Assembly (NCBI GenBank): GCA_032433765.1
Contig: JAVIAB010000124.1
Coordinates: 71,783,746 to 71,847,745, forward strand
From: Megaustenia siamemsis
Lineage: Eukaryota > Mollusca > Gastropoda > Stylommatophora > Ariophantidae
Direction: 5' to 3'
Length of the DNA: 64,000 bases
In this document: positions 32,373 to 63,870 of the stretch, one piece after another
How positions within the stretch are numbered: position 1 is the first letter of the stretch
Layout: every line of letters begins with the position of its first letter
Position numbers and translations under genes: made by a program
The notes under the pieces: model-generated
Databases searched by the model: none
Told to the model about the DNA's origin: nothing
Seen by the model: the letters and a program-made list of their open reading frames with translations, nothing else

Positions 32373-33204
32373 CTAGATACCTAACGATAAAGTCGTCACA
32401 TTGTCGTTGTGCACACGGCGTTTGATGTAGAAATAAGAGAGAGAATTTCTGTGCTGTGTATATGTATAGACACTCGATTTATATCGCTTAAACCCCACAT
32501 TTGTCCCTCCCTGCGCCTGTTGTGTCTTGAGAACCTTCATAAATATATCTTTGTCTAGTTTATTGTGATGTTTGCTAAGCCCTTTAGTACTAGTTTTTGA
32601 GTAATCTCCAAAACAGTGGTATGTTTTACTACATAACGATACCATCCCATTCCCTTCGTACTCTAACTTAAATAAACTCGGGGTACGTTTATGGTACAAT
32701 TTTGTTTTTTTCACAGTCTCGACAATCTACCTTAACTTTACCTTTACTCCTAACAAACACCTCCCGATGAAAGCTACAGGTCTCTGAAGGAACCACTGAT
32801 TGTACTCTTTATAAAAAAGTGTCGAGTAAAAGTGGTCTAACGGCGTCAGCTAAACTAGGTTTACTTAACGCTAAATACAGACTGTCGGTGTCCATTTCAC
32901 ACAGTTGAAAGTACGATCTCTCCACGAACCGGTCTAAAAAATCGTAATAAAATTGTAACATCCGTAGCTTGGCGTATATCAAGTAGCCGATTTGTAACGG
33001 AAGGTCCCACCTCGTCGTCTTTTTTAACGTTTCCACCTCGAATATATTTCCTACTCCTAAATCTGTCATATGTTTAAATAGAGGGTCGTTAACGAGCATG
33101 GAAACGGTCTAACCCTCGCAGTACGCTACGTTCGCGTGTTTCGCTTTATCGGTGAGAGTTTTTTTTTCCGTACGCCGAATTTCCTAACAACTTCATGGTC
33201 TCAC
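32373..33204 (-). pseudogene. polymerase copy 1, motifs B and C and C-terminus
   Basis: Reading on minus from the Sailor junction: MKLLGNSAYGK (motif B, template and nucleotide binding), then after an A-run frameshift a thumb-side segment with WDLPLQIGYLIYAKLRML, and YFQLCEMDTDSLYLALSKP (motif C, both aspartates present). A final open segment (32714-32373) holds LFKLEYEG, SLCSKTYHCFGD and a VYTYTQHRNSLSYFYIKRR end. Breaks lie near 33160 and 32800. This is the catalytic and C-terminal part of the gene described at 32373-40928. Confidence 0.8.
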
Positions 33205-33206
33205 TA

Positions 33207-35651
33207 TTGGTCGTTTCAAAATATTTTGAAGGTGTTTAAAATTCCATATCTCTGCAACCAATTGATTGATAATGCTGAAATTTTGCATATGGTCTTGTGA
33301 TTTTTTGGTCCCAAGAAGTACATTCATTTCCTCACCAACAAACGTATAGTTTTAAATATTCTTTATTTGAAGTATACAAATTTAAGGCATTTTGGTCAAA
33401 CCATATATTTGGAGGAATTACCGCTTCATATGAGTGAGCACCCACGGACTTGTCATCTTGAACGTAATGCGCGCCAATTTCCCTGTTTTAAGCACTAAAA
33501 AACACATAAAACGCGTCATAGTTATAATTTTATATCCCGTGCATCCCATTTCCTGTCGTTTTGTTGTGATTTATGTGCAACGGCGTATCCTAATTATTGG
33601 GTAATTTCGTTAAATTTGTGATCTGTTAGTCAATGGGTATAAAAGTAAAGTTCCTTACATTGCAATCAGTGGCAATAAAGGTGTATAAATATTTTTGCAT
33701 AGAAGCTAAGCGTGGAAAACTGTATCGAAGCATCTCAAAGCCAGAAAAGAGAACTATTCACGCATTGGGTATTAGCAAACGCTTTTTCAAACAAGTGCTT
33801 AAAGCTAACGGAGTGTCCAGTTCAATCAAGACTAGGACGCTAGGAAGAAAGAAAGTAGTAGATAGTTTTGACAAGGAAGTGATTAGAAGAGCAATTTGTA
33901 AAATGTTCGATTCCAAAGAAACTGTGACTTTAAGAAAACTGAAAATTCGACTGAGAGCAGAAAATGACATTGTTGTGTCGAAAACAACATTATGGAGAAC
34001 TGTTAGAAGCATCGGTTTTACGTTTAGAAAGTACGATAGTGGTAGAAATGTCATCTGCGAGAAGCCGCACTTAGTTTCTATGAGGAGTAAATATTTACGT
34101 GAAGTACGGGAAATGCGTAACCAAGGTTATGATATTGTATTTCTAGATGAATCTTGGATAAATTCTCACCACACAAGTGCAAAGGAATGGCAGTTATCAG
34201 ATGGAAGTATTAAAAGATGTGTAAAAGGACAGCGTATTATAATGGCACATGCAGGCAGCCGAAAAGAAGGGTTGGTGAAAAATGCAGAACTTATATTCAC
34301 CTCTAATTATACTGACAACAGGGACTATCACACCGAGATGAATGGCCATATATTTAGAGAGTGGATTGAAAATACTCTTCTTCCAATTCTAGACAGACCA
34401 TCCTGTCTGGTAATGGACAACGCGTCGTACCACAACGCTGTGGCAGAAGAAGACAAAATTCCTACATCTACCAGTACAAAAGATGTTATAAAGATTTGGC
34501 TAAGAAAGGAAGGAATTCCATTTAACGAGGGATTTTTGAAACCTGAATTACTGTCACTTGTTAAGAAATCGCAAAAGACCAAAGTATTCCAAATAGACAA
34601 AATCATTCAACAGCATGGTCATACGTGCTTGAGACTGCCCCCTTATCATCCACAATTAAACCCCATTGAACTCGTTTGGGCAAAAATTAAAGGGCAGGTG
34701 GCAGCTGAGAATACAAGTTTTAAACTATGCGATATAAAAGGACTGACATATGCTGCTCTATCACAGATTGACAAAGATTTTTGGTGCAAATGTGAAGATC
34801 ATGTCTTAAAAGAAGAAAATGACTATTGGAAAAAAGATGGACTATCGTTCGTTCAGCCCAGATTAGTAATCAATATGTTAGACTCCTCTGATTCAGAATA
34901 AATAAAATAATAATGGACGTTTTTATATGTTCGCATGATCAATCTTTAGCTAAAGTTGATAACGTTTTGAAAATGTAAAGATTCTTGATATGTGTACTGC
35001 AGGCATGCAAAGAAACTAAATCACTTTCATATGTCTTGTTTACGTAAAATAATGAAAGTCACATGGAAAGACATAAAACGAACAATGTAGCTCTTTACAG
35101 TGAAGAGGATCCCGTGCTTACATCGGACTCTTTAGTCACATGCGTACCCATAAACAATAACTTTGCTTGATATGTCATGCTCGTTATCGCTCGCAACGGA
35201 TAATTAATTTTTTTAAATGTATTCTTTGTTGTATATTGTTTAAATAGTTTTCATTAATGGAACTGTTTATACGCTGATTTGTTTTAGACCGTCTGTAAAG
35301 GCTATATAACATTGACATTCTCATAGTATTTTAAAGAAAGTAAACAATAGAAAGTAAACAGTTGATAAACGCCTCCAACTTTCAAGTTGTGTAGAGACGC
35401 CTATGTCGAGAAGCTGATTTCCATTAATGTACGGTAAATTATTTTCTCCAGGAGCAAAAAGATCCGTAAATTCACTGAGATCAAAGGAAAGTGCTGCTTC
35501 ATGATGAAGCATACTTCCTACATCATTAAATTTTGTGAAATCGGTGGGACCTTGGAAAAACAAGGCCAGATGCAAAAAATCAAGTTTGTAAGTGCAGGGA
35601 AAGAGGAGATATTTCATGTTAATCGTGAACATTTAAATTTGAAACGACCAA
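33207..35651 (+). mobile_element. Sailor-like transposon copy 2, inserted in polymerase copy 1
   Basis: The ends read TTGGTCGTTTCAAAATA (left) and GAAACGACCAA (right), inverted. TA duplicates lie at 33205-33206 and 35652-35653. Removing the element and one TA gives sequence that lines up with uninterrupted polymerase copy 2 near 63085-63100, an excellent empty-site control. It is 2.45 kb and carries an intact 422-codon transposase, so it is younger than copy 1 (5222-7337), or at least better preserved. Confidence 0.92.
33633..34901 (+). CDS. intact Sailor-like DDE transposase
   Basis: 422 codons from ATG at 33633 to TAA, no break. The N-terminal 130 residues are a helix-turn-helix-type DNA-binding region that would recognise the inverted repeats. 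The catalytic domain carries D172 (VFLDESWINSHH), D262 (LVMDNASYHN) and E346 (LNPIELVWAK). I count 83 residues between D262 and E346. IS630-Tc1-mariner families are named by this spacing, and the published Sailor group is DD82E, common in molluscs and other invertebrates, so this is that group or a close sister. The gap contains a conserved KPELLSLVK segment and HGHTCLRLPPYHPQLNP before the Glu. It ends LLDSSDSE. It may still encode active enzyme; the ends are also present. Confidence 0.9.
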   Translation: MGIKVKFLTLQSVAIKVYKYFCIEAKRGKLYRSISKPEKRTIHALGISKRFFKQVLKANGVSSSIKTRTLGRKKVVDSFDKEVIRRAICKMFDSKETVTLRKLKIRLRAENDIVVSKTTLWRTVRSIGFTFRKYDSGRNVICEKPHLVSMRSKYLREVREMRNQGYDIVFLDESWINSHHTSAKEWQLSDGSIKRCVKGQRIIMAHAGSRKEGLVKNAELIFTSNYTDNRDYHTEMNGHIFREWIENTLLPILDRPSCLVMDNASYHNAVAEEDKIPTSTSTKDVIKIWLRKEGIPFNEGFLKPELLSLVKKSQKTKVFQIDKIIQQHGHTCLRLPPYHPQLNPIELVWAKIKGQVAAENTSFKLCDIKGLTYAALSQIDKDFWCKCEDHVLKEENDYWKKDGLSFVQPRLVINMLDSSDSE

Positions 35652-35653
35652 TA

Positions 35654-36362
35654 GTAATAGACTGCGTCTCATCTACATCCCCTTTTCGTCTGGCGTCGGA
35701 TACGGTGTCCCCAAATTGCTTGAAACAACTAACAGGGTGGTATTCGATAACCTGGTAGATGTTGGTTATCTCCAGACCGTGATCTAAATACCATTTTAAA
35801 AAGGGGGTGGCCAAAAGAATTTTCTTCCCGATATAACTACCTATCAGGGTACGTCTAGGGGTCGTCAATAATTTCTTTTTCACGGCGTGATCCTTCATAA
35901 GCTCTCCTATATCGTCTCTACACACGTCTACGTTTGGGTGTCATTTCGCTAAAATATTCCTTGAGCTAGTCGGGGACATGAATATCGCATTCTACCAGGC
36001 CAAACAGCGTTTCGTCTTTAACAGATTTCAAAATCTGCTCGACAGTTAGGGGTAATTTTTCCCTGGCATACGATGGTTTTGATCTGGGGAGGGCTTGTTT
36101 AAGAAATAGAATAATTGTGGTATCGGTTTTCTTTAGCTCTTGCCATTGACATTCCCACATCTCAACCACTTCAACTCCAACGTCATTGGTTAAATATTCG
36201 CGAATTTCCCGGGTCTTGTCGTATAACTCGGACAAGGGTTTTTTTGTTTATAGGGTTAACACCTTTGTAATTTTAGTGAGGTGACAGTTATCTCCATGAC
36301 TGAGAAAGCCCATAAACTGAAAGACCTTATTACTCTCTTGACAGAAGCCATCCACTCTAATC
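35654..36362 (-). pseudogene. polymerase copy 1, segment between motifs A and B
   Basis: On minus: GPRRIRVDGFCQESNKVFQF, then SELYDKTREIREYL and VVEMWECQWQELKK (an endonuclease-like segment common in this polymerase family), TVEQILKSVKDETLFGLVEC, a stop at 35966-35968, a frameshift near 35930, and LIGSYIGKKILLATPFLKWYL to the Sailor junction at 35653. Homologous to 62300-63090 in copy 2. Confidence 0.75.
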
Positions 36363-37211
36363 CTACGAGGTCCTAAAGGTACCCCCGTTGTATTGAGTTC
36401 GCAACTCAATGTTATGTTTGTGAGCTACCCACGTCAACCACTCTCTACTCTGATGATCGTAATAATTAACTTTACGTTGTCTAAACCCGTCCTCAACTTT
36501 TCGAATAATTGGAAAGTCAGTAGGCATTTTCTGCATCAACGCCCAGAGATAGAGAGCGTTTGCGTCGTAGCCTTTAAAACTCTCTACTACATTTTCAGAT
36601 TTACCTCTGATTCGAGTCTCACTCTTCTCGTGGTGGCGATGAAAGATTATGCTCGGGCCACCCACTATATTATCTCTAAGTGTTTTATGAAGCTCTGCCT
36701 CGCGTTTACCACATAAAGAAAAGATTACGTTTTTAGGTATGGTGTTGAAAAGGTATCTTAACGTTATACCGGGGACTGAAATGGCGTCCTTAAACATATC
36801 TACACCTAAACCTGCGTAAAAATCGATTTGTTTCTCTAATGCGAGTAGGAAGGGTCCGACATCCTTATTATTATACCAAACAAGAAAATCTCTGAGAGTG
36901 GACATGTTATTGTCCACCCATATCTTGTTAGAATACTCGTACTCTTCGTTCGAAATATTGCAGTTTTTAAGCGTCGAAAAGAAGGCCTCATGCGGGGGAA
37001 GAGAGGTTTCGTCTAACTTGTTTAGGTTCGTAATATACTCGTAACAAAATACTCCTTTAGTCTCTTTAATCTTGTACGCCGCCAAGTATTTACTATAAGA
37101 GAACCCCGGGGCGAGATAATTTATAATATCTAAGAACTTTAGTCGACTGGTGGAAATGCACATACAATTATTATTACGCTTAACGATAAACTTGAAGGGC
37201 GAGGTCACCAC
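36363..37211 (-). pseudogene. polymerase copy 1, exonuclease III motif and polymerase motif A
   Basis: An open 282-codon segment. It runs FKFIVKRNNNCMC, KFLDIINYLAPGFSYSKYL, SLPPHEAFFSTLKN, FLVWYNNKDVGPFL (Exo III, YxxxD), MFKDAISVPGITLRYLF, DNIVGGPSIIFHRHHE and GYDANALYLWALMQKMP (motif A, catalytic Asp). It ends by frameshift at about 36385. This order is diagnostic for the Polinton/adintovirus-like polymerase group found in cnidarian, mollusc and fish genomes. Confidence 0.85.
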
Positions 37212-37227
37212 TGTTTTAGTTTTGTTT

Positions 37228-37460
37228 TGTTTCGGCTCTTCTTCTTCTTCTTCTACTTCTTCTACTTCTTCATCGTCATCTTCATCTTCATCTTCTTCTT
37301 CTTCTTCATCTTCTTCTTCTTCATCTTCTTCTTCTTCATCTTCTTCATCTTCATCTTCATCTTCTTCTTCTTCTTCTTCTTCTTCTTCTTCTTCTTCATT
37401 TCATCATCTTCTTCATCGTCATCTTCTTCATCGTCATCTTCTTCATCGTCATTTTCTTCA
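37228..37460. repeat. GAA/GAT (CTT on plus) expansion inside polymerase copy 1
   Basis: About 230 bp of nearly pure CTT and CAT triplets on plus (GAA and GAT on minus). In polymerase copy 2 the same place (61340-61440) is a normal acidic linker with mixed Glu, Asp and Lys codons. So the coding linker has turned into a microsatellite here. The Ser-only and Phe-only frames across it are by-products. Confidence 0.95.
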
Positions 37461-38618
37461 ATGTCATCTTCTTCTTCTTCGTTCGATTTTTCTACTTTGT
37501 TCGCCGCAGCTACGAAATGCCTTATTAAATATGGTTTGATAACGTTTACGTCATACTTTCAAGAGTTGAACCCTATAACGGGGAGCTCTCTCAAGTATGA
37601 CTCGAATTTCCCTATGAGGTCACTACAGTCACCGCTGTCTTTTAAACTGTCAAAAACCTGTTTGAAACTGCCACGTAAGATTATATATGCCCGTTTCGCT
37701 AATGTCTCAAGATAATCTATAATTTTACTCACTAATTTTTGAGAATCACCTTCGCTCACAAAACATACCGGTTTCTCATAACCGGAATATTACTGGCTAC
37801 GGCACACGACATTGGTATAGGCCTGGCTACATATTCGGTTACATTACTAGTGTCTCCATTTATCGTTGGTACATTACTAAAGTAACATTCATAATCGCAC
37901 GTCGCTCTGTAGGGATACACGTAGTTATTAGGAACTTCTATACCCCGATTAGCTATCGTTTTGAGTATACCCTCCTGTGATCTATAGATCCCTCCCACAT
38001 ACTAGTCTTTTCGCTTATCCTCGGTACATGTCTTCTTGTGTCTATCCATACGCCAACATTCTATCCATAATTTCCCACATTTAGGACAAGAAAAAGCACG
38101 GGCCGCCTTATCTATATCCTCTATATACATAAAATGTTCCTCGTAAAATAGAACTCGTAAGGTGTCGCTATAATTCGTACTACCTCTTAGCATTGGGGAC
38201 AGTGCTTGTTCATTGTCAAAAGCGAAGACATCCACGTTAATACCGAAACACTTTTCTAGAGAGGGAATCTGCGCTAGCGTTACACCGGGGAACTCGGTGT
38301 CTATATCTAACCCCTGATTTTCTTGCCACTGTTTCAGGAGATCGCGAGTGGGTCTGTGTAAATTACTGAGATTAGCACCCCTAAATAACGCCACGCATCT
38401 AACAAAAACAGAGATTATCAGTATAGGCTGGCCCGTTTATGTTATTTTTGTAATGTATAAATGAAATTATTTTTTGTAATGTGCAGTGGGAGCTCGGTTG
38501 TTAGACAGCCGATAGGATATTCTACGAAATGAAAAAGAAAGTAAGTTGTAGCTGAAACACTTTCAATTGTATACTAGCTGCTAGGTCTGTTATGATTTGC
38601 GTGGTTTAAGGGGTCACT
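37461..38618 (-). pseudogene. polymerase copy 1, N-terminal block and exonuclease I/II motifs
   Basis: On minus: DNLCF-type block with a one-base loss, then ALFRGANLSNLHRPTRDLL, GVTLAQIPSLEKCFGI, a CPKCGKLWIECWRMDRHKKTC finger, a stop (38002-38004), YVYPYRATCDYECYF (Exo I, DxE), a frameshift near 37775, GDCSDLIGKFESYLRELP, and GFNS followed by a stop (37559-37561) at the Exo II motif, then KYDVNVIKPYL. The DNLCFFR-like start resembles the catalytic Cys box of OTU proteases, but that is only a resemblance. Confidence 0.7.
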
Positions 38619-38629
38619 ATCTTGTAGTT

Positions 38630-39874
38630 ATACCGGTGTATACAAGGAAGGATTCAGAATAAAATCAATACTGAATTAGATTAGCAGCAATTTGGATTTA
38701 GGAAAAATAGCGGGACAAAAGAAGCCATATTCTGCATGAGAACATTAATCGAAAAATACACAGAAGTAAACAAACCAATATATGCCTGCTTCATAGACTA
38801 CACCAAAGCTTTTGATAGAGTACACCACAAACAACTTATAGAATGCCTAAAAGAGATACATCTAGATGACATGGATATACGACTAATATGCAATCTATAC
38901 TGGGAGCAAACAGCAATAATAAAATATAACAAAGAGTTCTCTACACCCATTGATATAAAAAGAGGAGTAAGACAAGGATGCATCCTATCACCAAGCTTGT
39001 TCAATCTATACACTGAGCAAATCTTTAAAAACATCATAGAGATGCCAGGCCTACAAATTAATGGAAAGATAATCAATAACCTAAGATATGCTGACGATAC
39101 TGTACTACTAGCAGAAAATCCTAAAGACCTACAACAATTACTTAATGAAATAAACACGACAAGCAAAAAATATGGACTAGATATGAATATCAAAAAGACT
39201 AAAACTATGATCATAAACAAAGAAAATACTCAAAACCCACAAGTGGATATCAAAATTGAAGGAATAGACCTTGAGACAGTTCAGAACTATAGCTACCTTG
39301 GACATACTATAACCAGTGATGGAAAATGTACAACTGAAATAAACAAAAGAATAGGAATGGCAAAAAGTAATTTTAATGTCATGAAGGACATACTAACATC
39401 AAAACAAATAACACCAGAGCTAAAACTAAGAATAGCAAAATGTTACATCTTCTCAATATTCCTATATGGTGCTGAAACATGGACATTAGACAAGAAAACA
39501 GAACAGAGAATTGAAGCCTTTGAAATGTGGATATATAGAAGAATAGGTAGAATTGGATGGAAGGAAAAGAAAACAAACGACAAAGTCTTAAAACAACTAA
39601 AAATGAAAAGAGAACTTCTGAACACAATTAGAACAAGACAAATGCGATTCTTAGGCCATGTTAAAAGACACAACAGCCTACTGAAAGTGATCCTGGAGGG
39701 GAAAATACAAGGTAAAAGAGGCAGAGGCAGACCAAGATTAACATGGACGAGTAACATCAAAAGATGGACAAATCAACCGATGACAGCCTGCACCATCAAA
39801 GCAAGAGATAGAGCAAAATGGCGCTCCATGGTAGCCAACCTTCGTTGCGGAGACGGCACTCAATGATGATGATG
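38630..39874 (+). mobile_element. LINE-B, 5'-truncated, inserted in polymerase copy 1
   Basis: Flanked by the 11-bp direct repeat ATCTTGTAGTT (38619-38629 and 39875-39885). The intact 376-codon frame 38736-39866 (open upstream from about 38681) holds FIDYTKAFDRVHH, GVRQGCILSPSLFNLY, NLRYADDTVLL, YLGHTITSDG, FLGHVKRH and GKRGRGRPRL. It ends in an ATGATGATG tail. A young insertion: the RT part has no break. Without it, the finger region and the polymerase part read on in one frame. Confidence 0.92.
38736..39866 (+). CDS. LINE-B reverse transcriptase (partial)
   Basis: 376 codons of a non-LTR retrotransposon RT, lacking the endonuclease because the copy is 5'-truncated. RT motifs: CFIDYTKAFDRVHHKQ (motif A), RRGVRQGC-type motif (here KRGVRQGCILSPSL), RYADDTVLLAE (catalytic YADD), then the thumb and a connection region with LLYG-like FLYGAETWTLDKK. 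The C-terminus MRFLGHVKRHNSLLKV to GKRGRGRPRLTW is shared with LINE-G and other RTE/CR1-like families. In life it copies its own RNA at nicked DNA. This copy cannot move alone. Confidence 0.85.
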   Translation: MRTLIEKYTEVNKPIYACFIDYTKAFDRVHHKQLIECLKEIHLDDMDIRLICNLYWEQTAIIKYNKEFSTPIDIKRGVRQGCILSPSLFNLYTEQIFKNIIEMPGLQINGKIINNLRYADDTVLLAENPKDLQQLLNEINTTSKKYGLDMNIKKTKTMIINKENTQNPQVDIKIEGIDLETVQNYSYLGHTITSDGKCTTEINKRIGMAKSNFNVMKDILTSKQITPELKLRIAKCYIFSIFLYGAETWTLDKKTEQRIEAFEMWIYRRIGRIGWKEKKTNDKVLKQLKMKRELLNTIRTRQMRFLGHVKRHNSLLKVILEGKIQGKRGRGRPRLTWTSNIKRWTNQPMTACTIKARDRAKWRSMVANLRCGDGTQ

Positions 39875-39885
39875 ATCTTGTAGTT

Positions 39886-40928
39886 GTGTAAGGAACCTAT
39901 CAAAATCTGCTCTGTTATTTATAACCATCGGAGTTGAAAGAATTAAACTATTATTGAAACTACTATGGAACAACCGAAGGCCATTGTTCTCTTTATTCCT
40001 CAGGATGAAATTGTGAGAATAATTTATTTTAAATCTGCGACTTTGGTTATTAAAGATGGGATTGAGAATGCTTGGCCAGTTCGGAGTTAGCGCTGAATTT
40101 GGTCTGTGAATCACCGTGTGCGTTGACAGATGTCTGTTATAATTACTATGTGACCTTATTGCCGGCCAGTTGTCGACATAGACTTGTCTAACATCTGTCG
40201 GTAAACTAGCTAAACTGTATATTTTGAGATCCGTTCGCGCCTTCTTTGTGTGTTGACGCTCTGTCGATTGTACATTATTCCGCTTCCTCTTATTTGTTGG
40301 TTCAGCTATGGACTTTGAACAGGTCGTCGGTATCGAAACTGATGAGGAGGAGGGGGTTGATGCTGCTGTTGTGGAGGTGGTTGGCGGGTGTGTCGAGGAC
40401 ACAATCGATGATGATCCATGGTTAGTAGTAATATGTTTATTCAAACTGACACGTCTGGAATAGGTACACATACACAGCCGACACGGGTATCGGTGAGCGG
40501 AATGTGCACCATAAATATGTCTATCTCTACTGCTGCGATTAGTGAATTGACGACCACCCTCGTTGCAAAAATGATCTACTTTAGAAGAACTGTTACTGGT
40601 ATTAAAGGAGGTGTCCTCTAATCGGGGTAACACGGTAGCATTATCTACCATTAGAGGTAACTATTATAGAGTCTGTGTACGGTGATAGTTTGTGAACTCT
40701 CGAGGCTGTATCCGATGAGTGTGAGTGTTTACTGGCAACATGTCTTGTCAAGTTGAGTGACCTTATATAGACACACCCACAGATATGGCATTTATAACGT
40801 TGCCTCCCGTGTGCTGTATTTACATGACGTTGTAAATTGTACTGTCTTGAAAAATCTCTGTCACAGGTGTCACACTTATAATATATTCGATCTCCCAACT
40901 CAGCTGACGCTTGGGTACCCGACGACAT
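39886..40928 (-). pseudogene. C2H2 zinc-finger N-terminus of polymerase copy 1
   Basis: Begins at ATG 40928. Finger 1 (YKCDTCDRDFSRQYNLQRH) and finger 2 (YKCHICGCVYIRSLNLTRH) are good C2H2 units. After a one-base frameshift near 40650 come a degenerate finger (FCNEGGRQFTNRSSRDRH) and a fourth (YPCRLCMCTYSRRVSLNKH). A Ser/Thr-rich linker with a basic NKRKR stretch follows, then LASLPTDVRQVYVDNWPAIR. The end, FDRFLTQL, runs into LINE-B. Beyond the LINE the same frame continues towards the polymerase, so this is its N-terminal domain and not a separate regulator. A copy is at 53985-54662. Confidence 0.8.
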
Positions 40929-41441
40929 CTATCGGAAGAAATAAACAAATAATAAACTCTACGTTTAGGATACATATAATAAAATGTATAATATAGTAAC
41001 AAACAACTAGCTATGTTTCTAATATATAAACAGAACTAATACCATACAATAATACCTATATGAGACGTTTGAAAAAAAAACTATACCTCTGTCGAAGAGA
41101 GGAAAGTTGACGGGGAATCAGACGTCCCTGGTAGTGACTGAGACCAGTCTACAGTAGAATACTTAGAATAATAATAATAAATAGAGTAGAACTAATATCT
41201 CTGCTAACAGTCACATCACGCCTCTCTGTGAGGTTAGAATGAGCCAGAGTATTCATAAATCGGGTGATAATGAAATAGAAACATCTTTTGCTACAAGTTA
41301 AAATCGATTGCATAAAGGCTGGTATAGGGCTGGTGTGTACTTATAATTCCACAGACAGATTGAGTGAATATACAAAAAAAAACTACGAGCAAATTAACAA
41401 ACAAACAAAAATTTAAAAAAATAAAAAAAACGGTGTTGTAG

Positions 41442-41729
41442 AAACACAAGGTATTATTTTCTGTACTACTAAATAACTTCGAGGAGAGTGGTATACCATT
41501 TAGCGAGCTCGTGGATCAAATATTCTTGGATAATCACATCAACCAGGGTCGGATTTTTATAATTTACGCGCTCGGTCAGTGTTTAGTTCAGAAACGTGTA
41601 AGTACATTGTACAATTCTGATATCAACGTTATCGACTATGAAGAAATGTTAGCTAGCTCGATATCGGAGTGCATTGCTGAAAAAAATATGCTCCTGGGTC
41701 CAGAGTCAGGGCGGTTGGCTACAGTTTGA
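41442..41729 (+). pseudogene. Bcl-2-like fragment (BH1-type motif), copy 1
   Basis: An open frame of 95 codons, with no ATG. The position that aligns with the ATG in copy 2 is ACG, followed by a TAG at 41439-41441. The segment IPFSELVDQIFLDNHINQGR followed by IFIIYALGQCLV resembles the BH1 region of Bcl-2 proteins, where NWGRI lies between two helices. A BH2-like end is not clear. It stops at RLATV, shorter than typical Bcl-2 proteins (about 150-240 residues). Viral Bcl-2 homologues block apoptosis. The assignment is a motif-level inference; alternatives include an unrelated helical protein. The sequence upstream (41010-41441) is shared, inverted, with 53465-53960. Confidence 0.45.
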
Positions 41730-41877
41730 AGGTACCTACAATCAGAACACATCAGTGTGCGAAATAATTCGCCAAATGCTGACAGCATTGGTCTGATAAC
41801 ACAGATGAGACGCATCAGCTTACACTATGTGTCAATGTGAGCCAGTGGACTGAGAACTACAATTAGTCATGCCTATA

Positions 41878-41931
<54 letters not shown>

Positions 41932-42840: not shown

Positions 42841-42852
42841 AGATAGAAAGTG

Positions 42853-42860
42853 TATAAATA
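42853..42860 (+). promoter_or_regulatory. TATA box for the cyclin, with downstream GC box
   Basis: TATAAATA at 42853-42860, with GGGCGGGGC (Sp1-type) at 42869-42877, lies about 165 bp before the cyclin ATG. Position and form fit a core promoter, but this rests on motif only. Confidence 0.5.
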
Positions 42861-43023
42861 TTTGGCATGGGCGGGGCTATCTTAAACAACGAATCGTCTA
42901 TATCTTTGACTAAGAAGCGTTGAGGACAGTACTGAATTCTATTGGTGACGATTGCTTAGATCTGTCAGTCACAGAGACACATAGATCAGTGGGTATCTAC
43001 TTTCTAATGCATCATTCTACATT

Positions 43024-47110: not shown

Positions 47111-47142
47111 TAGTTACACACAGACACTCAATATTAAATAAC

Positions 47143-47148: not shown

Positions 47149-47186
47149 TAATCACGAGGCATGTTTTGTAACTTATATATATATAT

Positions 47187-48011: not shown

Positions 48012-48063
48012 CTTCTGTATCTCAGCACTGAACGATGTGTGACTGGAGCTTTTTCACCCGCGA

Positions 48064-48590: not shown

Positions 48591-48629
48591 AATGGAACAC
48601 CGTCTCACAAAAATGTCAGACATAAGTCT

Positions 48630-50389: not shown

Positions 50390-51098
50390 ATATTATTATG
50401 TAGTCGATCTGATTACGTGAGATGGCTCTTGGGCTTTTCCACGTCCACATATTTCTTGGATGTTGCTTGTACCAGGTGTTTATTATTATCATGTTGTGTG
50501 TTCTTGCCCAGTCAATAAACTTGTTACCTCTTTCATTTCTGTCATTTAAGCCATAATAACCAACTACTTCTTCGACGCTTTCCTTTTGTACTTTTGCATT
50601 GAGATCCCCTAGAACTATGATGTTTTCATGTGTTTTGAATTGACAAAGTGCTGTCTTAAGCTCGTGGTAAAATTTAACAACTGTTTCCTCTAGAATGTCC
50701 GCCTTTGGTGCATAAACGTGTATGATATAATATCGAATGACTTACCATTCAATTTCACTAATAGGAATCAGTCATACTTTGCCCACAGGATACCATCAAC
50801 TATCAAGGAGGGATCAAGTCATCATACTTCGCCTACGCACTGGCCACAATAAAATGAGGAATCACATGTTCACCAAATTCAAAATAGGCACAACCAGCCT
50901 ATGCCACTGTACACTGGACAAAATGACTACAAAACATGTTCTACAGGATTGCCCCCAGTACGCAGACCCGAGAAGAGCAATGTGGTGTTCACCCACCTCC
51001 TTGTAAGAGAAACTATATGGGGCAATCGAATCGCTTAAACAGACAGCTGACTTCATGAGAGAGTCTGGAATCCTACTCTGACTGAGTCTTGATCGCAG

Positions 51099-51163
<65 letters not shown>

Positions 51164-53325: not shown

Positions 53326-53465
53326 ATGCACTAGCTAGTAAGAATGTGGGAGAGTCTTTTAATAAACACGCCAGGGACTCTGGTCAGCGACTATTATCTC
53401 AAGGCGTAAACACTCTTACTCCGCGCAAAAGAAGACGACGACGAAGACTTCCAAGATATAAAGAA
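53322..53465 (+). pseudogene. basic virion-core-like protein, C-terminal fragment
   Basis: Plus frame reading AQDALASKNVGESFNKHARD, SGQRLLSQGV, then NTLTPRKRRRRRRLPRYKEY and a stop. The pattern, a repeated helix of the kind V..DvL.G.s...s...R...aG..LL followed by an Arg-rich tail, resembles the basic minor virion proteins I associate with adintovirus/Polinton-like elements and adenovirus core proteins. Only the last 50 codons remain. The left edge meets the EGF fragment and the right edge meets the Bcl-2-like copy. The identification is tentative. Confidence 0.35.
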
Positions 53466-53984: not shown

Positions 53985-54662
53985 GGTTTATTATTTGTTT
54001 ATATCTTCCAGTAGATGTCGTTAATAACCCCACCATCGGCTGGGTTGAGAGACCGAGCCCGTTATAAGTCTGTGACAGAGATTTATGAGACAGTACACCT
54101 TTCAAGGGCATGTAAATACAGCATATGAGTGGCAACGTTATAATTGTCTTATCTGTGGGTGTCTATATAAAAGCGATCAAATTGACAAGACATGTTGCCA
54201 GTAAACACTCAACTTCCATCGTTTACAGCATCGACAGATCACACACTATCACCATCTACAGACACTATAAGAGATCCATCTCTTATGGTAGATAACACTG
54301 TTGTACGACCCTGACTGGAAGACATATCCGTTAATGTCAGTTATAGTTCTTCTTATATATAGTTTCAATGTCACTTACATCAGCATCATTCTCCTCAGCG
54401 GTATCGCCAGCATCAGCTTCGTCAGTGCGTTCTTATTCAACGTCATCAGCTGCACCGACAAATGAAAGGAAGAATACAGTCGAAAGAAAGGGAACATAAC
54501 AAGAAAGAACACACAGAAACAGAATTGGATAGTATAACTACAAGGTTGGTAACAACAGATGTTAGACAAATTTATTAAGATCACTGGCCCGTCATAACAA
54601 GGCACAGTAGCGCTAACAAACATCTCTCAGTGCACACTGTTTCACAGACCTAATACACCGCT
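53985..54662 (+). pseudogene. C2H2 N-terminus of polymerase copy 2, decayed
   Basis: Inverted homologue of 40928-40110. Finger 1 is frameshifted. Finger 2 is partly legible (NCLICGCLYKSD). The Ser-rich linker survives (SPASASSVRSYSTSSAAPTN), and TTDVRQIY lines up with TDVRQVY of copy 1. It breaks off at a (CT)n run (54662-54700) and LINE insertions, and the gene resumes at about 60138. Confidence 0.7.
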
Positions 54663-54990
54663 CTCTCTGTCTCTCTCTCTCCCTCTCTCTCTCTCTTAAC
54701 TGATCCAATCTTCTCACTTCTCTCCTTAATACCCAAACACGACGCTTTAAAATATATTTTTTGCACAACTTCGTCTTGAGAAATAAAGAGACTAACAAAG
54801 TTCGCCTGTTTCATCATCACTATCATCATAGTACCATGCTTATTGGCGTTGGTAATCATGTCTTTCCACAACTTTCGAACTAAACAGTTATTTATCATTC
54901 CTGTTGTTGACCTTCTGCTAAGCCATTCTCTTATGTTGTCTGATATTTTCTCTTTGCTTTTCTCTATATCTTCGTAATATTTGTAATTCT
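54662..54990 (-). mobile_element. (CT)n run and LINE-G 3' end
   Basis: A CTCTCTC tract (54662-54700) is followed by a LINE-G-like 3' end on minus (54805-54990) with CATNATCATCATAGTACCATGC, compare 1252-1340 and 11091-11180. Confidence 0.5.
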
Positions 54991-54994
54991 CTTA

Positions 54995-56934
54995 ATATTT
55001 TTCCTGGCACTGATAGTAGCACAATTCCCCTATAATTTGTGCACTCCTGTAAACTTCATTTCTTTGGTAGTTTGATAACCTTATTTCCAGTCTTTAGGTA
55101 TTTCTTCCCTCTTCCAAATTTTATCTAATAGATTATGTAGCATCTTGGTAGAGGTGTTAATATCTGCTTTGATGGCTTCCGAAGGAATTTCATCTGGTCC
55201 TGTGGCTTTACCATTTTTTAATAGTTTGATGGCTTTCATTATTTCTTCTATGCTTAGTTTTCCACAGTTAACGTGTAACTCTTCTTCTGCTGGTAATATA
55301 TCTAGAGGATTATTTGAGCCGGGTATATTCAAAAGTTCTTCAAAGTGCTCTTTCCATCTCTTCATTTGTTCCCTTATATTACTAAGCAGATTTCCTTTCT
55401 TATCTTTAATAAAGGCATTGATCCGTTTGTATTTTCCACTTAATTTCTTTGTGCTATTGTACAGTTCTTTCATATTCCCTTTATTTGCTGCTTCTTCTTC
55501 CTCCAGCAAGTTCATCTATATATTTCCTCTTATCCCTTTTAATGCATCTTCTCACTTCTTTGTTCAACTCTGTGTAAGCTTCCTGTGTCTTGGCTTTATT
55601 ACTTCTCGTTTTGCTTTTATTTCTGTCTGCTTTCTTGTTCTTTCTTTCTTTAATTTTATCCAGGGTCTCTGCTGTCATCCATGCCTTATTCTGGCGTTCT
55701 CTTTTCCCTAGTGTTTCTTCGCATGTCTCTTTCCATATATCTTTTACCTGTTTCCAATGATCTGATATAGTTATTGTACTTTCTAGTTGTTGGAGAACTT
55801 GGTATTTGTTTGATATTGTGACTGCGAATTTATCGTTAATTCCTTGTTCTTTAAGGAACCCTACATTGAAATACTTTCTACCCTTATCTGTTGTAGTATA
55901 CCTTTTTAGTTTAATTTTAAGTTTAGCTATCAGAAGATGATGATCAGAAGCTATATCTGCCTCTCTATATACTTTTACATCCTGTAAGGATGACTTAAAC
56001 TTATTATTAATACATATGTGATCAATTTGATTTCCGTTCTATGATCTGGTAACACCCATGTAGTTTTGTGTATTCTTTTATGTTGGAATATCGTTCCTCC
56101 TAGGCTCACTTGATTAAGGGCGCAGAAATTCACAAATATCTCTCCATTCTCGTTTATATCTCCAAGTCCATGTTTTCACAAAATCTCTTGGAAGCCATTT
56201 AGGTCTCCCATCAAGATTATAATATCCTTGGCTCGTCTTGCATCCATCTGACATTGTAGCTGTTTATAGAAATCACCTTTAACTAAATCATCTTTATCAT
56301 TGGTTGGTGCATAGCATTGTATAATGTGTAATTTTATTTTGTTTTTGGTTGTTTTAAATGTTGCTCTTATTAGTCTCGGTCCTACTGCTTCCCATTCTAT
56401 TAGTGTCTTCTGTGCATTCCTTGATAGCATTATAGCTACCCCTTCACTATGTTGTGCTCCAGGTTCCTGGTGTCCTGATGATAAAATCATCTCTCCTGTA
56501 TTTAGTTTTATTTTACCCGTTCCTAGCCATCTTGTTACACACATTCCCAAATTATATATCTTGTAGTTTGACATTTCTGCAGCTACCTGTGCAGCTTTTT
56601 CTTGTTCATTTAGAGTACGGACATTCCATGTGCCAATTCTGGAGGATTTCCTGGTAGACAAAGGGTGAGTCGGCAACCCGGACTCCTTGCGGCTTTCTCC
56701 GGCTTGCGTCATATGTCTCTTAGACAGAAAGCCCTTCTCTTTCCTGGATAGCGGATTAACTTTTTCTTTCTTTCACTTGTCCATGTTTGTAAAGTTTTTT
56801 CGGCTTATTATTTTACAGTATGGGATATCTAGTTCCATACCCAACCCTCCTTTCTCGCCTCTTACGAACATGCCTGGTAGGGTACAGCGCCACTATTCTT
56901 TACTCCCCTTTCGCGCCCCGGTAGCGCACGGGCG
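54995..56934 (-). mobile_element. LINE-E, 5' half (5' end, endonuclease, linker, RT start)
   Basis: The 5' end CGCCCGTGCGCTACC is at 56934 on minus. It encodes the endonuclease (56712-56176; IGTWNVRTL, HIIQCYAPT, DIIILMGDLN), with the T-run frameshift of the 43696 copy absent (GDFYKQLQ intact). A basic linker and the segment 55515-55081 follow, with KRWKEHFEEL, where the 43696 copy has a stop, and KNGKATGPDEIPSEAIK. It ends just inside the RT. 3'-truncated, so it was cut by a later event. Confidence 0.85.
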
Positions 56935-56935
56935 A

Positions 56936-59900
56936 AGCTACTGTGCGGCGCCGATATAATGCTGTTGCAAGAAACTCTTCTTGGTGACAGGACAGCAAGT
57001 ACTCCTGGATGTCATTGTATCTACAATAGACGACACCTTGGGCAGACCATCGTTATGCGCAACAATGTGGTGGCAGCTGAGGTTGATATGTCTGCGTGGG
57101 ACAATACAGAATTGCAGGTACATGCGGTTAGGGTGCAGACCCCAGTTCATTTCGTAATTGTAAATGTATACGCCTGTAATGGGAAGGTGGACACACAACA
57201 ATGGCAGAATCTCTTCGAGCTCGATGAAGAGAACGTCATTTTCTGAGGAGACTTTAATGCTAGAGGAAACCAGTGGGGTAGCGTCATAACCAACAAGCAG
57301 GGAGAAGACCAAGAGAACGCACTAGTGTCAGTCGATTTAGTGTGCTTAAATGATGGAAGGGCAACAAGAATGGCCATTCGAACAGGTGACTCTGATAGTG
57401 TCATAGACCTGGCACTGGTGTCTTCCACCATCCCATCGGTTTACAGGTGGAGTGCACTGTGGTTCCACGGAAGTGATCACTATCCATGTGTCCTCCTCAT
57501 TGAGAAAAGCAGAAATAGAAGCCAGAAAAGAAAGCTCCACACATTCCACTACCAGAAAACAGACCAGGGCGTCATTAGCAAAATCAGACAAAGGAAACTG
57601 AGCGCCCCTCGTAGGTAGCAGGAGAGATGGACGCAGCCACCCTTGTGGAACGTAGAAGTCGATGAATCTTTGCGGTACAAGAGACAAACGGCCAAGACAT
57701 GGCAGAAAGCCAGAAAGAATGGAAAAAACAAACTTGAGCTATTTAAGCGTCTGAAAGAAGAGGTCGACCAAAAAATGATGTACTTTAAACTGTGTGCTAA
57801 GCAGGCTAAGGATGCCAAATGGAATGACTTCTGTAAAATCGCTAGCCACATACTGGCGCCTTCATCAGTGCACGAATGGCACAACACGACATAGAGGCAT
57901 ACCAGACTTTAAGAGCACAGGCCGGATATGACACAAATCTGATGAGAGCAAAGGGAAGGCCCTGCTTGCCCACTACATTGAGCACACGGACCGAAGAAAT
58001 GAGGCTGTACGAATGAGGATACGGAGATCGCTGTCCAAACTGTGTAAGGATATAGTGCTGGAAGAAGATCGCACAATCACAACCGATACCATTCGCACAA
58101 CACTTAAAAGGTCACACAACACTGCTCCTGGTCCAGATGGTGTTCGGTACGATGACATAGGCGATTTAGCTGACGACGACTTGACAAAACTAGTCAATGA
58201 GTTTAATGCCAGCATCCGGAGTGGCCAGATTAAGGAGGAGTGGCTACACATCTACTTATTACCGCTACCGAAGCTAAACAAGGACCATTCTCAGATCAGT
58301 GCCTACAGAATCATTACAATGCAGAACTCTGCGGGGAAGCTGCTGAAGAAAATAGTTGCCCGTGTCCTCAACTGCCACCTTGAACAGAAACGCGCATTCT
58401 CACCAACACTCGGAGGTTATAGATATAACAAAGAGACATGGCTCAATGCGGCAGTCTTTGCCTATGACGTCTTCGAAGGCTTCTACAGACAAGAGGAGAC
58501 ATGTGCTGCTGCTATAGATCTGGAGGATGCATACAACAGGGTACCATTTTAATACCTCATGTATATGCACCTCAAACTGCCGGCTTTTTGCTGATGATGT
58601 TCTGGTATATCGACAGGGAAGAGACAGACGGGGAATCGCCTCCACAATGCAAGACCAACTCGATCGAATGTATTCCTGGTGTGGGGTTTCAGGTGCCCTG
58701 TTAATCCTAATAAAGCATCAGTTGCATGGTTCTCCCTAAACAATCATATCGTTAATACGACCACACTGGTAGTACGAATGAGAGCTGATGAGGTGACCAG
58801 GGACAAGTTGATGACATACCGCGGTGTTACGTTTGATCGCAGCCTGTGTTTTCGGGACCACGTCAATCAATGTAATAACAAAATCCCGCAAAGGATTAGC
58901 CGCCTTGAAGGTCATGGTAGTAGCCAACATCGAGCAGAGGCTACTTACTCTTCTGTTCCAGGGATTAGTCCTCGCACCTATCGAATATGCCCTGGCAATT
59001 CTTACTGTCAGTACGACTCAAATTGATAGGCTGGAGAAAATACAAAATGAAATCATGCGCATTATTTTGGGATGTACAAGGAACACTCTCTGTGTAGCAA
59101 TGATGTATCTTCTTGACTTTCAACCATGGGTGACAGAATCAAGATCTGGAGAGCACGAGCATACCTGAAGATTAGTACAGATACAAAGCATCCATTGCAC
59201 CACGTGCTCAACACAGGGAAAGGTGCCAAGATTTAAAAAAAAGGCAAATCATGGGTGGGCCAAGCAGAAGATGTCATCAAACAGGCCTGTGGGTTTACCA
59301 ATATCAACGTTAGTGAGGAGTGGATACCGGTGCATACGTCATTCAAGGGGACTTTCTCGTGTATTGTCACACTCGACAGGAAAAGTAAGGAACAGAACTC
59401 GGTCGTGGTTAATGCTGAGGTCAACGGTCTCATCTGCGTTAACACCGATAAGAAAGATGCAGTCATCTATACAGACGGATCTGTAAGACGACACCAAAGA
59501 AGTGCATGGGCATTTACAGCACGCTCGGCAGGCAGAATAGTTAAAGAAGACAGTGGTGCATACGTCATGACTACGAGTAGCAAGACAATGGAGGTGATGG
59601 CAGTGACCAAGGCATTCAAATGGTTAGAGTCACAAGACTACACCCACGCATGTATACTGAGTGATACAATGAGCATGATAAAAAAAAAGTGGAGGCAGGC
59701 TCTGTACACATACATTGGGTAGAGTCATTGCAGAGGTCAAAAATACGTAGGGTCACCTTTGTCTTTGTCCCTGGACACGCGGGAATACGGGGAAATGAAA
59801 GAGCGGACAGGTTGGCTAGCTGCACTGCCGTTGAGGACGGGCAACCAACGGATCGAGCGGACATCATCAATGCCCTCCGAGATGTGGGAAGAGCACAGGA

Positions 59901-60137
59901 CTTCGACAAACACAGATCCACGTCACTTCTTCGGATGATGGAAATGGGAGTAATGATGGGTAGAGCCAGAAATGAAAAACTTATTGGCCGTGTAAGTAGA
60001 CTTATCAACCAACATAGAACTGGAGTCATCAGTCGCTGGACACTGCGGGACTTGTTGAGCAGAGGATCTGAGCACCTATGGACATGTTCGGAGTGCAATG
60101 ATGATGATCCGCAAATAACTCAATAACTCAATACGTT
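56936..60137 (+). mobile_element. LINE-F with endonuclease, RT and RNase H
   Basis: A long plus-strand element in four or more frame pieces. Endonuclease: LLQETLLGDRTAS, VNVYACNG, GDFNARGNQWG, SDHYPCVLL. RT: APGPDGVRYDDIGDLADDDL, LPLPKLNKD, AIDLEDAYNRVPF (motif A), then, after a deletion near 58550 that removes the GxPQG motif, FADDVLVYRQG. RNase H (59460-59850): VIYTDGSVRR, TMEVMAVTKAF, ACILSDTMSM, GHAGIRGNERADRLAS, so D, E, D and the final D are all present. C-terminal LINQHRTGVISRW and a CSEC end. The tail is (ATAACTCA)n. Its 5' start abuts LINE-E. An I/jockey-like RNase H LINE; dead. Confidence 0.85.
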
Positions 60138-60366
60138 ACAGAATAACATAAATGGTCCAGTCTATTCTGATAATCTGCGTTTTTAGGTTCATAGCTCTAC
60201 TCAGGGTATCTGACCTTGATACGTTACACAGACCACCACGTACTCTCTTGAAGTGGGGGATAAAGTATACATCTTTTCGTTATTTGGAGACTTCTCGGGT
60301 GTAATTTTAGCAGAGATTCCTTCACTCGAGGAGAGTTTTAAGATTAAGATAAAAGTTTATCGATTC

Positions 60367-60615
60367 CTCAGTGGTTAGTGAACTGGACTGCAAAGGACAA
60401 GAGGTAGGGTTCGTTTCCAACCGACGGCTTCCGGGTTCACCCAGCCTTTAATGGGTACTGCATTTTTTCTGGGAAAGTAAAGCGGCACGGGCGTAATACC
60501 GACCACATTACCCCAAAAATCATGTGCCGAAAGTCTGTAAAATGTATGGTCACTAACACCATATTCCCTATACGCCACTTGGCGTGACGGGGGTACTTTA
60601 CTTTTCTTTGCTCTA
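60367..60615 (+). mobile_element. tRNA-headed SINE, copy 3, in polymerase copy 2
   Basis: Same family as 3014-3275. Head CTCAGTGGTTAGTGAACTGG, body CCACATTACCCCAAAAATCA, tail ACTTTACTTTTCTTT. Direct repeat TATCGATT flanks it (60359-60366, 60616-60623). It splits the polymerase frame right after IKIKVY. Confidence 0.88.
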
Positions 60616-61569
60616 TCGATTTGATGAGGAGGAGAAACGTGTTCCACTGTTGGGAAGTGTGGCTATTTATGAGGACACATCGTATATTATGAAAACCATG
60701 TTATGTATATAGCGGATATAAATAGGGCGGCCTGTACATTTTCTTGTCGTAAGTGTGGCAATTGTTGAAAAACAATTGGAATATGGATAGGCACGAGAAT
60801 ATTTATGCACTGGGGACAAGCAAAAAGATAAGTATGCAGGCGGTATCTACAAATCTCATGAAACTATTTGGGAGGTAACAGTCATTGTGTAGAGGTTCTT
60901 AATAATTATGTGCATCCCTACAGAGCAACCTACGATTACGAGTGTTACTTTTGTAATCTGCAGCCGACAAAAGGATCGAGTAGTGTAACCAACTATGTAG
61001 AAAAGCATATATTACTGTCGTGTTTCATAGCCAGCAATATTCCTGGGTATAAAAACCCAGTATGTTTTGTAAGCGATGTTGACCTTAGCAATTAGTCAGC
61101 AGAACTATAGATTATCTAGATACCTGAGCAAAAAGGGCATATAGAATCGTACGTGACCGTTTTAATAGTGTATTTGACAGTCTGAAAAACATGGGTGACT
61201 GTAGTAATCTTATAGGAAAATTCAAAACATACCTAAGAGAGCTGCCCGTATTATGATTCAACTATGGGAAGTATGACTTCAACGTAATTAAACCATATTT
61301 AAATAAGACACTTCGTAGCTGTGGCGAATAAAGTAGAGAAAAAAATGAACGAAGAAGATGAAGTGAGCGACGAGGACTCGAACGAGGCAATGAAAGAAGA
61401 AGAACCGAAACAAGACAAAGCTAAAGAAGACGAGGCCTCGTCCTTCAAGTTTATCGTTAAAGATAACAATAATTTATGTGCATCTCCACCAGACGTCTAA
61501 AGTTCTTTGACATAAATTATCTCGCCCCGAGGTTCTCTTATAGTAAATACTTAGAGGCGGACAAGGTTC

Positions 61570-62125
61570 TTCCTCTTTTTTCTTTTCTCTTTTCACTGAT
61601 ACCTGAAAGGTGTCGTGGTTTATATCATTTGTCGTTTTTGAGCTGATCGAACTGTCTGAATTAGTGATTTTCCTCTGTTGTTACATGTCACTGTCACAGC
61701 ATCTATCCATCTTCTTCTGGTTCTTCCTCTTTGTCTTTTTCCATGCATTTTGGAGAAGAACGCACTTGATGGTGATTGGTGGGGATTCATTCTGACCAAG
61801 TGGCCAAACCATTTAAGTTGTTGTTGTTCTATATATTCTTGGCAGGGTTTTGTTCCTACCATTTTTCTTAATGGTCATTTGGTATTCTATCTCTTCTTGT
61901 GTTGTTTGTTACTTTTCTCAAGCATCGCATCTCACATGTATTGATCTTTCTTAATTGTGATTTAGAAAGGGTCCATGTTTGACTTTCATAGCACAAAGTT
62001 GGTATGAAAATGTTATTTGTATTCTCATGTCAATTTCTCTGTCTAGTTTTCCATCTTCTGTGAACATTGTACCCAAATACTTGAATTCTTCTACTTGTTT
62101 TATTTCTTTATCTTTGATCTTAATG
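61570..62125 (-). mobile_element. LINE-H 3' fragment in polymerase copy 2
   Basis: Same family as 15591-16080, with QQQLKWFGHLVRM and GKRQRGRTRRRW on minus. Imperfect 11-bp direct repeats CGGACAAGGTT (61559-61569) and CGGACTAGGTT (62126-62136) flank it, marking retroposition into the polymerase gene. Confidence 0.85.
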
Positions 62126-63870
62126 ACGGACTAGGTTAGTGAGACAAAATGGGCAACTTTTACGAGTACATCACCGACCTTAAAAAATTAGACGAAACAT
62201 CTCTTCCCCCCTTCCCCCCATCCGCACTCTGCTTTCTTTTCATCCCTCAGAAATGTAAGACTTTCCAATTATACCAAAAAAAGAGGTCGGTTTAGACAGC
62301 GTGAGGTTAAATTATTACGATCATCAGAGAAGAGAGTGGTTGACGTCGGTATCTCGCCTTTTAAAATTGAGTTTCTAACTCAATTCAACGAGAGCAAGGT
62401 GCCTTTGGTACCTCACAGGATTAAAGTAGACGTCTTCAGTGAAAAGCATAAATTAGTTCTAAGCTTTCACATATGTGTTTTTTATGGACATAAAGACTGC
62501 GTGCTTACTCGAGGTCTCACTAATAACCCCATAAATAAAAAAAAACCGTTATCCGTGTTATACGACAAGACCCGCGAAATTCGTGATAATTTAGCCAATG
62601 ACATTGGAATTGAAGTAGTTGAGATGTGGGAGTATGAGTGGCAGAGGCTGAAGAAAGCAGACAGCACCATTAATTCTTTTCTTTGACAGGCCCTTCCCAG
62701 GTCAAAACCCTCTAATGCCATGGAAAAATTACCCCTAACCGACACTTCTGAAATTTCTTTTAGACGAAACGTTTTTTGGTCTGGTAGAAAGCGATATTCA
62801 TGTCCTAGAACACTTGAGAGAACATTTTAGCGAAATAACACGCATATTAAAAATATCGATGTGTCTAGAGACGATATATGAAGGAGCACGCCGTAACAAA
62901 TAAATTATTGACGACTACGTAGGTAGTAAACTATTTCTGGCCACTCCGTTATTGCGCTGGTATCTCACACACGGCCTACAGATGACTAACAAACACCAGG
63001 TGATCGGCCTGTTAGTTGTTTCAAGCAATTTGAGGACACCGTATCTGTCGAGAGACAAAAAGGGGATGTAGATGAGACGCAGTCAATTACTAGTGAGACC
63101 GTGAAATTGTTAGAAAATGTAGCATACGGGAAAACTCTTACTAAAAAAAACGAAATACACGAACGTCGCGTACTACATGGGTGAGGACTCGTCAAAATTA
63201 GTCAAATCTCCCCTTTTTAAACATATGACAGATTTAGGAGTATGAAATATATTCGAGATGTTTTAAAAAACGACTTAGGACCTTCCGTTACAAATCAACT
63301 AATTTGTGCATCAGTACGCCAAGCTGCGGATGTTAGTTTTATTACAATTTTTTAGACAGATTTGTAGACAGATCAGACTTTGAACTGTGTAAAATGGACA
63401 CTGAGAATCTTTATTTGGCGTTAAGTAAACCTAGTTTAGCTGACGCCGTTAGATCAGAGATGTTAGATGACTTATACAAAAAGTATGATCGCTGGTTCTC
63501 CACAGAGGCTTGCAGCGTTCAACGGGTGGAATTTTTTAGGAGTAGAGGTAGAGCTACAGTCGAGAATGTGAGACGGTAAAATTGTACCATAAACTTGTCT
63601 ATTCAAGCTATAGGGCGATGGAGATGGGATCGTTATGTAACAAAACGTACCACTGTTTTGGGAAGTATTACTAATCTAGTGGTAAAGAGCTTAACAAACA
63701 CCACAATAAATTAGACAAAGATACTTTTATGAAGGTCCTCAATGCACAAAAGCACAGGGATGGGAAATGTGTGGTTTAAAATATATAATTCAAGCGTCTA
63801 CGCCTATACACAATGTGGAAATTACCTGTCTTATCTTTATATAAAACGCAGTGTGCAAGAAGACAAGACA

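Follow-up and report, generated by a model that had tools for sequence, protein, structure and literature searches.

The window analysed here, a stretch of 64,000 nucleotides of contig JAVIAB010000124.1 from the gastropod Megaustenia siamemsis, contains two degraded Polinton remnants that face each other in opposite orientation. Element A (31826-48627) holds genes for a cyclin, a Bcl-2-like protein, a PC4-like protein, an adenain-type protease and a putative family B polymerase, and is interrupted by nested transposons. Element B is an older relative that extends from 53461 to 373 bases beyond the window end. Relatives of element A elsewhere in the genome suggest a Polinton family in which a cyclin and a Bcl-2-like protein probably serve viral control of the cell cycle and of cell survival.

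Polinton remnants in the window

Open reading frames (ORFs), taken as stop-to-stop frames, were searched against Pfam; the further profile sets PHROGs and NCBIfam and the PDB were also used. The original prediction placed one virus-like locus at 32373..63870, with two copies of a polymerase with a C2H2 N-terminus. Pieces of both copies were found, but they belong to two opposite elements, of which the first starts at 31826 and the second ends outside the window, and their identity as polymerase is by motif only. The predicted protease holds, with a Peptidase_C5 domain at 48163-48585 on the minus strand, and so does the PC4-like protein. The predicted BH1-like fragment (41442-41729, plus strand) matches PF00452 at 24.7 bits, under the family cut-off of 31.4; the three relatives tested are above it. 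The predicted single-exon cyclin has a clear Cyclin_N domain, but its gene is cut by an insert resembling a long interspersed nuclear element (LINE), and its last part lies beyond this insert. The locus had been described as partial, with integrase, ATPase and capsid genes unrecognised; likewise, neither the window nor the adjoining 30 kb gave a tblastn match (E <= 1e-3) to any of these three.

Element A keeps only one terminal end and is lost past 48627. It is interrupted by a Tc1-like transposon, a LINE-like insert and the LINE within the cyclin gene. A duplication of about 12 bases borders the latter, which has more copies at 54986-56936 and 48632-49981, the second of which begins where element A ends. 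Compared with a better-preserved element of the same genome, named C51, four parts of element A (31824-33202, 35654-38629, 39875-43695 and 46928-48627) are 88-93% identical at the DNA level, and the right arm formed by element B is only 73-76% identical. Because of this difference, A and B are considered two separate elements of different age.

Related elements in the same genome

The genome searched for relatives is that of the window (2.59 Gb, 155 contigs). Two cyclin-bearing elements of 16-18 kb, C51 and C8, and a cyclin-free one, C105, were read. C51 (L042:1867 to L043:8027, 16.2 kb) has terminal repeats of about 405 bp that are 97.8% identical, AGTAGT ends and a 6-bp target duplication, CATGTT; the matching empty site, with one CATGTT, is in the window. 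C8 comprises about 17.7 kb between 200-bp repeats that are 92.5% identical. Overall, the terminal repeats of the relatives are about 200 to 610 bp long, and each relative has a single polymerase.

The gene set common to C51 and C8 includes putative polymerase, Bcl-2-like, cyclin, candidate ATPase, integrase, small virion-like, capsid, protease and PC4-like genes; both also encode a Cys-containing protein of 173-175 amino acids (aa). The C8 integrase has rve (4.4e-11) and Chromo (3.6e-9) domains, the C8 protease matches Peptidase_C5 (6.3e-6), and a PC4 domain was also found on a C8 protein. The candidate C8 ATPase has a P-loop and weak matches only (AAA, 3.9e-4; Pox_A32, 4.2e-4; Adeno_IVa2, 0.003). 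The original prediction had proposed to ask whether cyclin, PC4-like and protease genes accompany the polymerase at other loci; both elements hold all of them between terminal inverted repeats. The predicted single lineage of mid-size DNA viruses with both cell-cycle and survival genes is upheld in so far as these relatives hold all the genes together with integrase, candidate ATPase and capsid, but most copies lack the cyclin. The prediction had also reckoned with relatives lacking cyclin, protease and Bcl-2-like genes. Such a loss was found for the cyclin only: C105 keeps the protease and a Bcl-2-like gene.

C105 and C51 are 97.6-97.8% identical in the block of virion genes and 97.3% identical in most of the polymerase; the N-terminus of the polymerase and the Bcl-2-like gene differ. 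The elements are therefore mosaics. In the three elements (L042/L043, L044/L045, L047/L048), the polymerase/Bcl-2-like/cyclin block and the block from ATPase to PC4 differ in relative position or orientation, which gives three gene orders.

Copy number and gene association

The loci examined, extending 1.5 kb either side, cover the best 30 of 53 genomic cyclin matches, which correspond to 28 distinct places. Another Polinton gene lies within 1.5 kb at 28 of 28 distinct places and at none of 18 control stretches. The controls were eight LINE loci, eight host cyclin loci and two of three flanking 10-kb stretches, the third being excluded because it contains the end of element B. The neighbours at the 30 loci are Bcl-2-like (22), PC4-like (16), protease (12), ATPase (10) and polymerase (3) genes.

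The protease search gave 2978 candidates, of which 150 were scored; all are at least 91% identical, and 141 are stop-free as counted from the table. One 30-base protease word has 225 sites with up to two mismatches, versus 0 for the control. In the search with the C105-type Bcl-2-like gene, 150 of 1771 candidates were scored, with 78-100% identity and, by our own count, about 125 stop-free. This gene accompanies 116 of the 150 scored protease copies at up to 12 kb on the same strand (median distance 7.5 kb). Near-identical cyclin copies indicate that this large Polinton family spread through the genome recently. At one location (G000:C91:95202670-95207163) four same-strand protease copies are spaced by exactly 1360 bases; a piece of the element is apparently now a tandem array.

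The cyclin is a minority cargo: a near-whole cyclin domain is present at 24 places, versus the 225 sites of the protease word. It lies within 5 kb of 7 of the 150 scored protease copies; in the window the distance is 5.2 kb because of the LINE within the cyclin gene. Since most elements have no cyclin, the gene is not essential to the element. Among the matches listed, the C105-type Bcl-2-like gene occurs within 12 kb at none of the 28 cyclin places, and 26 of the 150 scored protease copies have neither it nor a cyclin, which does not by itself prove absence.

The viral cyclins

The cyclin ORF of the window (42985-43737, plus strand) is closer to cellular cyclin E1, its best PDB match, than to solved viral cyclins, the herpesvirus structures matching more weakly (4.4e-11 and 3e-10). 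The 285-aa cyclin matches cyclin E1 at 7.3e-31 over residues 34-244, and a second version does so at 6.8e-22. Both versions have an open frame across both cyclin boxes, with cyclin E1 as the best solved structure. Judged by these matches, the viral cyclin is an E-like cyclin, and binding to a cyclin-dependent kinase (CDK) is predicted. A single-sequence fold of the cyclin was unusable, at a predicted local distance difference test (pLDDT) score of 31.

Among the 53 genomic matches, 14 places including that of the window show 93-100% identity and 10 show 40-41%; the remaining matches are weak or fall on fragments and on older, broken copies. The Cyclin_N domain has 49 matches in the genome. Twenty-four span at least 123 of 127 positions unbroken (two of them with internal stops), and all of these lie at viral cyclin places. 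In seven host genes the domain is split into two pieces; we take two of these genes to be of cyclin E type and others to be of types A, B and B3. The viral cyclins have no introns. Over at most 83 aligned residues, the two versions share 37% identity, and their identity to host cyclins is 21-33%; for the window cyclin, identity to the host cyclins compared is 24-30%. A tree built on this short stretch (at most 83 residues) and on cyclins of this genome only sets the viral cyclins apart from the host ones with 95% support. The absence of introns and the separate grouping suggest one old capture, probably of a processed copy and earlier than the split between the two sublineages.

Eight full-length family-1 cyclins form three subgroups of 5, 2 and 1 copies, with differences of 1-4 bases within subgroups and a synonymous divergence (dS) of 0.033-0.039 between them. 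Among these eight (L011:1540-2397 and seven more), the N-terminus is MGSNVSCKS in seven and MGSNVSYKS in one; it resembles an N-myristoylation signal, and the second version does not have it. Two cyclin copies 118 kb apart (G000:C51:100635979 and 100753779) differ by one base in the cyclin and would stem from either a segmental duplication or two insertions.

The Bcl-2-like, polymerase and capsid proteins

A Bcl-2-like gene is carried by all three elements read, and in two sublineages a cyclin-E-like gene lies next to it. The proteins of C8 (1.2e-14), C51 (1.1e-8) and C105 (2.8e-8) match PF00452 above its cut-off, and BH1 and BH2 of the C8 protein align with Bcl-xL.

The polymerase pieces of the window align with an open frame of 1540 aa in another element. 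Searches of Pfam, PHROGs, NCBIfam and the PDB identified no polymerase, either for the window pieces or for the full-length relative, in which zinc fingers gave the sole matches of note. The frame contains YDANALYL, GNSAYG and MDTDSLYL, which we take to be motifs of family B polymerases. The putative assignment to this family, made by these motifs and by the position of the gene in otherwise complete Polintons, is the weakest point of the annotation.

For the C51 capsid protein, Pfam gave no match and the protein database 1259 relatives. Of the 120 listed, five are named by organism, and all five are from gastropods (Pomacea, Littorina twice, Elysia and Nucella). A model of a homologue that is 69% identical to the C51 protein (P0001; built from 19 sequences, mean pLDDT 78) matched in Foldseek the capsid proteins of an iridovirus (2.6e-16), Sputnik (1.6e-15) and mavirus (8.7e-13), as well as PBCV-1; one adintovirus protein is among the many fold matches. 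By the modelled fold of this homologue, the C51 capsid protein is taken to be a major capsid protein of the double-jelly-roll type.

Relation to known systems

Rhadinoviruses carry a viral cyclin together with a viral Bcl-2. The elements described here resemble them in having a pair of cyclin and Bcl-2 relatives in one DNA virus, but they belong to a different virus class. The elements of this genome resemble the animal Polintons, or Mavericks, described from vertebrates (PMC8097293) in size, in their terminal repeats with AGT-AGT ends, in integrase, capsid and protease genes beside a putative polymerase and a candidate ATPase, and in having accessory regions and modules of variable orientation. 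Neither cyclin nor Bcl-2 appears in the text of that report, whereas here cyclin and Bcl-2-like genes lie between the core modules. By ends, size and gene set the elements fit the known class of Polintons, with a cargo of cyclin and Bcl-2-like genes.

Adintoviruses are likewise integrase-bearing animal DNA viruses. According to PMC11071296, the majority of those associated with mammals seem to encode anti-apoptotic homologues or candidate oncogenes; the word cyclin is missing from the text of that paper. In giant-virus-like regions of the Klebsormidium genome, a captured cyclin lies beside capsid and packaging-ATPase genes (PMC5294986). That cyclin is of plant type U, in a giant-virus context, and the available portion of the paper mentions no Bcl-2-like gene. 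No report of a cyclin in a Polinton was found in searches of an open-licence literature library that lacks the founding adintovirus paper.

In IMG/VR no relative was confirmed by cyclin, capsid alignment, polymerase or ATPase, so that contig context is confined to this genome. In the protein database, none of 50 candidates for the C8 Bcl-2-like protein and none of 428 for the 285-aa cyclin reached E <= 0.001 in a search that needs shared five-residue words and also misses ordinary cyclins.

Possible role of the cyclin and Bcl-2-like genes

We assign a probability of about 0.8 to the reading that this is a cyclin-bearing Polinton family whose cyclin and Bcl-2-like pair serve viral control of the cell cycle and of cell survival. 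The polymerase would copy the linear element from a protein primer, the virion genes would package it and the integrase would insert it. The viral cyclin could bind one of the host's CDKs (most likely CDK2) and push a resting cell into S phase, which would supply nucleotides and replication factors; the Bcl-2-like protein would restrain the apoptosis provoked by this forced entry. The pair would then be a functional counterpart, reached independently, of the rhadinovirus cyclin and Bcl-2.

Several observations weigh against this proposal. The cyclin is missing from most elements. Each of C51, C8 and C105 is broken in some gene: the C51 polymerase is split over two frames, the C8 capsid frame is short (327 vs 436 aa), and the polymerase and integrase of C105 are in pieces. 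In the cyclin-1 elements, represented by C51, the Bcl-2-like protein is short, at 121 aa, and its BH1 motif is altered; in 5 of 10 family-2 cyclins the open frame has no ATG ahead of the cyclin box; and the polymerase is named from motifs only. The pooled ratio of nonsynonymous to synonymous substitution rates (dN/dS), 0.44 for family 1 (8 of 9 loci, one with a shorter frame being dropped) and 0.51 for family 2 (10 copies, last 681 bases), rests on few, non-independent changes and gives weak support for selection on the cyclin.

Some of these points would fit passenger cargo picked up by chance and without a role in the life cycle, namely the many elements without cyclin, dN/dS values just moderately under 1 with few changes behind them, and the short, altered Bcl-2-like protein of the cyclin-1 elements. 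We consider this unlikely, as the frames of two cyclin versions with just 37-40% identity both stay open across the two boxes, and Bcl-2-like genes recur by 116 of 150 protease copies and are mostly free of stops (about 125 of 150 matches). There is next to no chance that the cyclin is an ordinary host gene or a retrocopy lying beside a Polinton remnant by coincidence. The original prediction had named this alternative, and the gene is intronless, as retrocopies are; but the association is repeated at 28 distinct places, with a constant arrangement in well-preserved copies, and the window cyclin shares little identity with host cyclins and pairs with the second viral version in the tree. This repeated and ordered association led us to reject the reading as a host gene or retrocopy. 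It is also very improbable that the locus in the window represents a single element whose very long inverted arms duplicate the polymerase. Long diverged inverted arms do exist in the repeat analysis (31918-41527 vs 53461-64373), but their unequal identity to C51 shows them to differ in age, and the relatives have short terminal repeats and one polymerase; none of the three elements read has two equally old polymerase arms. The single-element structure was rejected on the ages of the arms.

If the cell-cycle and survival role of the pair is correct, some Polintons carry genes for the takeover of host proliferation and survival, as tumour-associated DNA viruses do. This would support Polintons as viruses over plain transposons, and would add a new convergent capture of the cyclin/Bcl-2 pair. 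The question could be tested in one genome, where cyclin-bearing and cyclin-free sister elements are both present, and in annotations of such genomes viral cyclins and Bcl-2 proteins may be entered as host genes. We speculate further, at rather less than even odds, that Polintons built a viral cyclin and a viral Bcl-2 independently of herpesviruses through one ancient cyclin capture, that the family, present in hundreds of inherited copies and in recent near-identical ones, still mobilises or infects by forcing S phase and blocking death, and that the germline is a large reservoir of growth-promoting viral genes.

Features of the window

Table 1. Coordinates of Polinton-related features and inserted transposons in the window.
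Feature	Position	Strand	Evidence
Terminal inverted repeat, polymerase end of element A	31826..32214	.	AGTAGT at 31826; 31850-32214 93.8% identical to C51 repeat
Element A putative polymerase, in pieces, N-terminal C2H2 fingers	32373..40928	-	tblastn with C51 and C8 polymerases; 88-93% DNA identity to C51
Tc1-like transposon inside element A polymerase	33203-35653		DDE_3 2.2e-16
LINE-like insert inside element A polymerase	38629-39875		Named by eye
Element A Bcl-2-like gene, two frames	41433..41790	+	84-85% identical to C51 protein; PF00452 3.5e-5, under cut-off
Element A cyclin-E-like gene, first part, stopped by LINE-like insert	43024..43695	+	Cyclin_N 3.3e-28; cyclin E1 5e-26
LINE (endonuclease and reverse transcriptase) within cyclin gene, foreign to element A	43738..46912	+	Weak endonuclease match 0.0016
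Element A cyclin gene, last part	46913..47107	+	87.7% identical to residues 221-285 of 285-aa cyclin
Element A PC4-like gene	47256..48053	-	PF02229 7.9e-9
Element A adenain-type protease, without N-terminus	48163..48627	-	Peptidase_C5 3.1e-9; 93% identical to C51 protease
Uninterrupted copy of the C51 target repeat (empty site), single CATGTT	50788..51099	.	50788-50940 corresponds to C51 left flank, 50935-51099 to right flank
Small virion-like gene, 34-residue fragment adjoining element B	53310..53411	+	56-62% identical, best E 1e-9
Element B Bcl-2-like gene, limited to its first 33 residues	53460..53558	-	76% identical to C51 protein
Element B putative polymerase, in pieces, LINE insertions 54986-60131	54082..63864	+	tblastn with C51 and C8 polymerases; 73-76% DNA identity to C51
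Element B outer end, continuing into L039:1-373	63865..64000	.	L039:1-373 71% identical to C51 terminal region

Between the two elements, minus-strand ORFs at 52374-53052 have a weak laminin-EGF match (0.0011, under the cut-off), and are adjoined by a 187-base inverted repeat of 99% identity (52826-53012 and 53087-53273). A second Tc1-like DDE_3 element, a relative of the one in the polymerase gene, lies at 5726-6883 and has a 95% relative at L039:7257-9362. A fragment of a Mutator-like transposase (3.4e-18) is present at 26185-26847. After a GATG run, a large tandem array occupies positions 7676-10188, with units of 12 to 60 bases related to GATGGATACATT.
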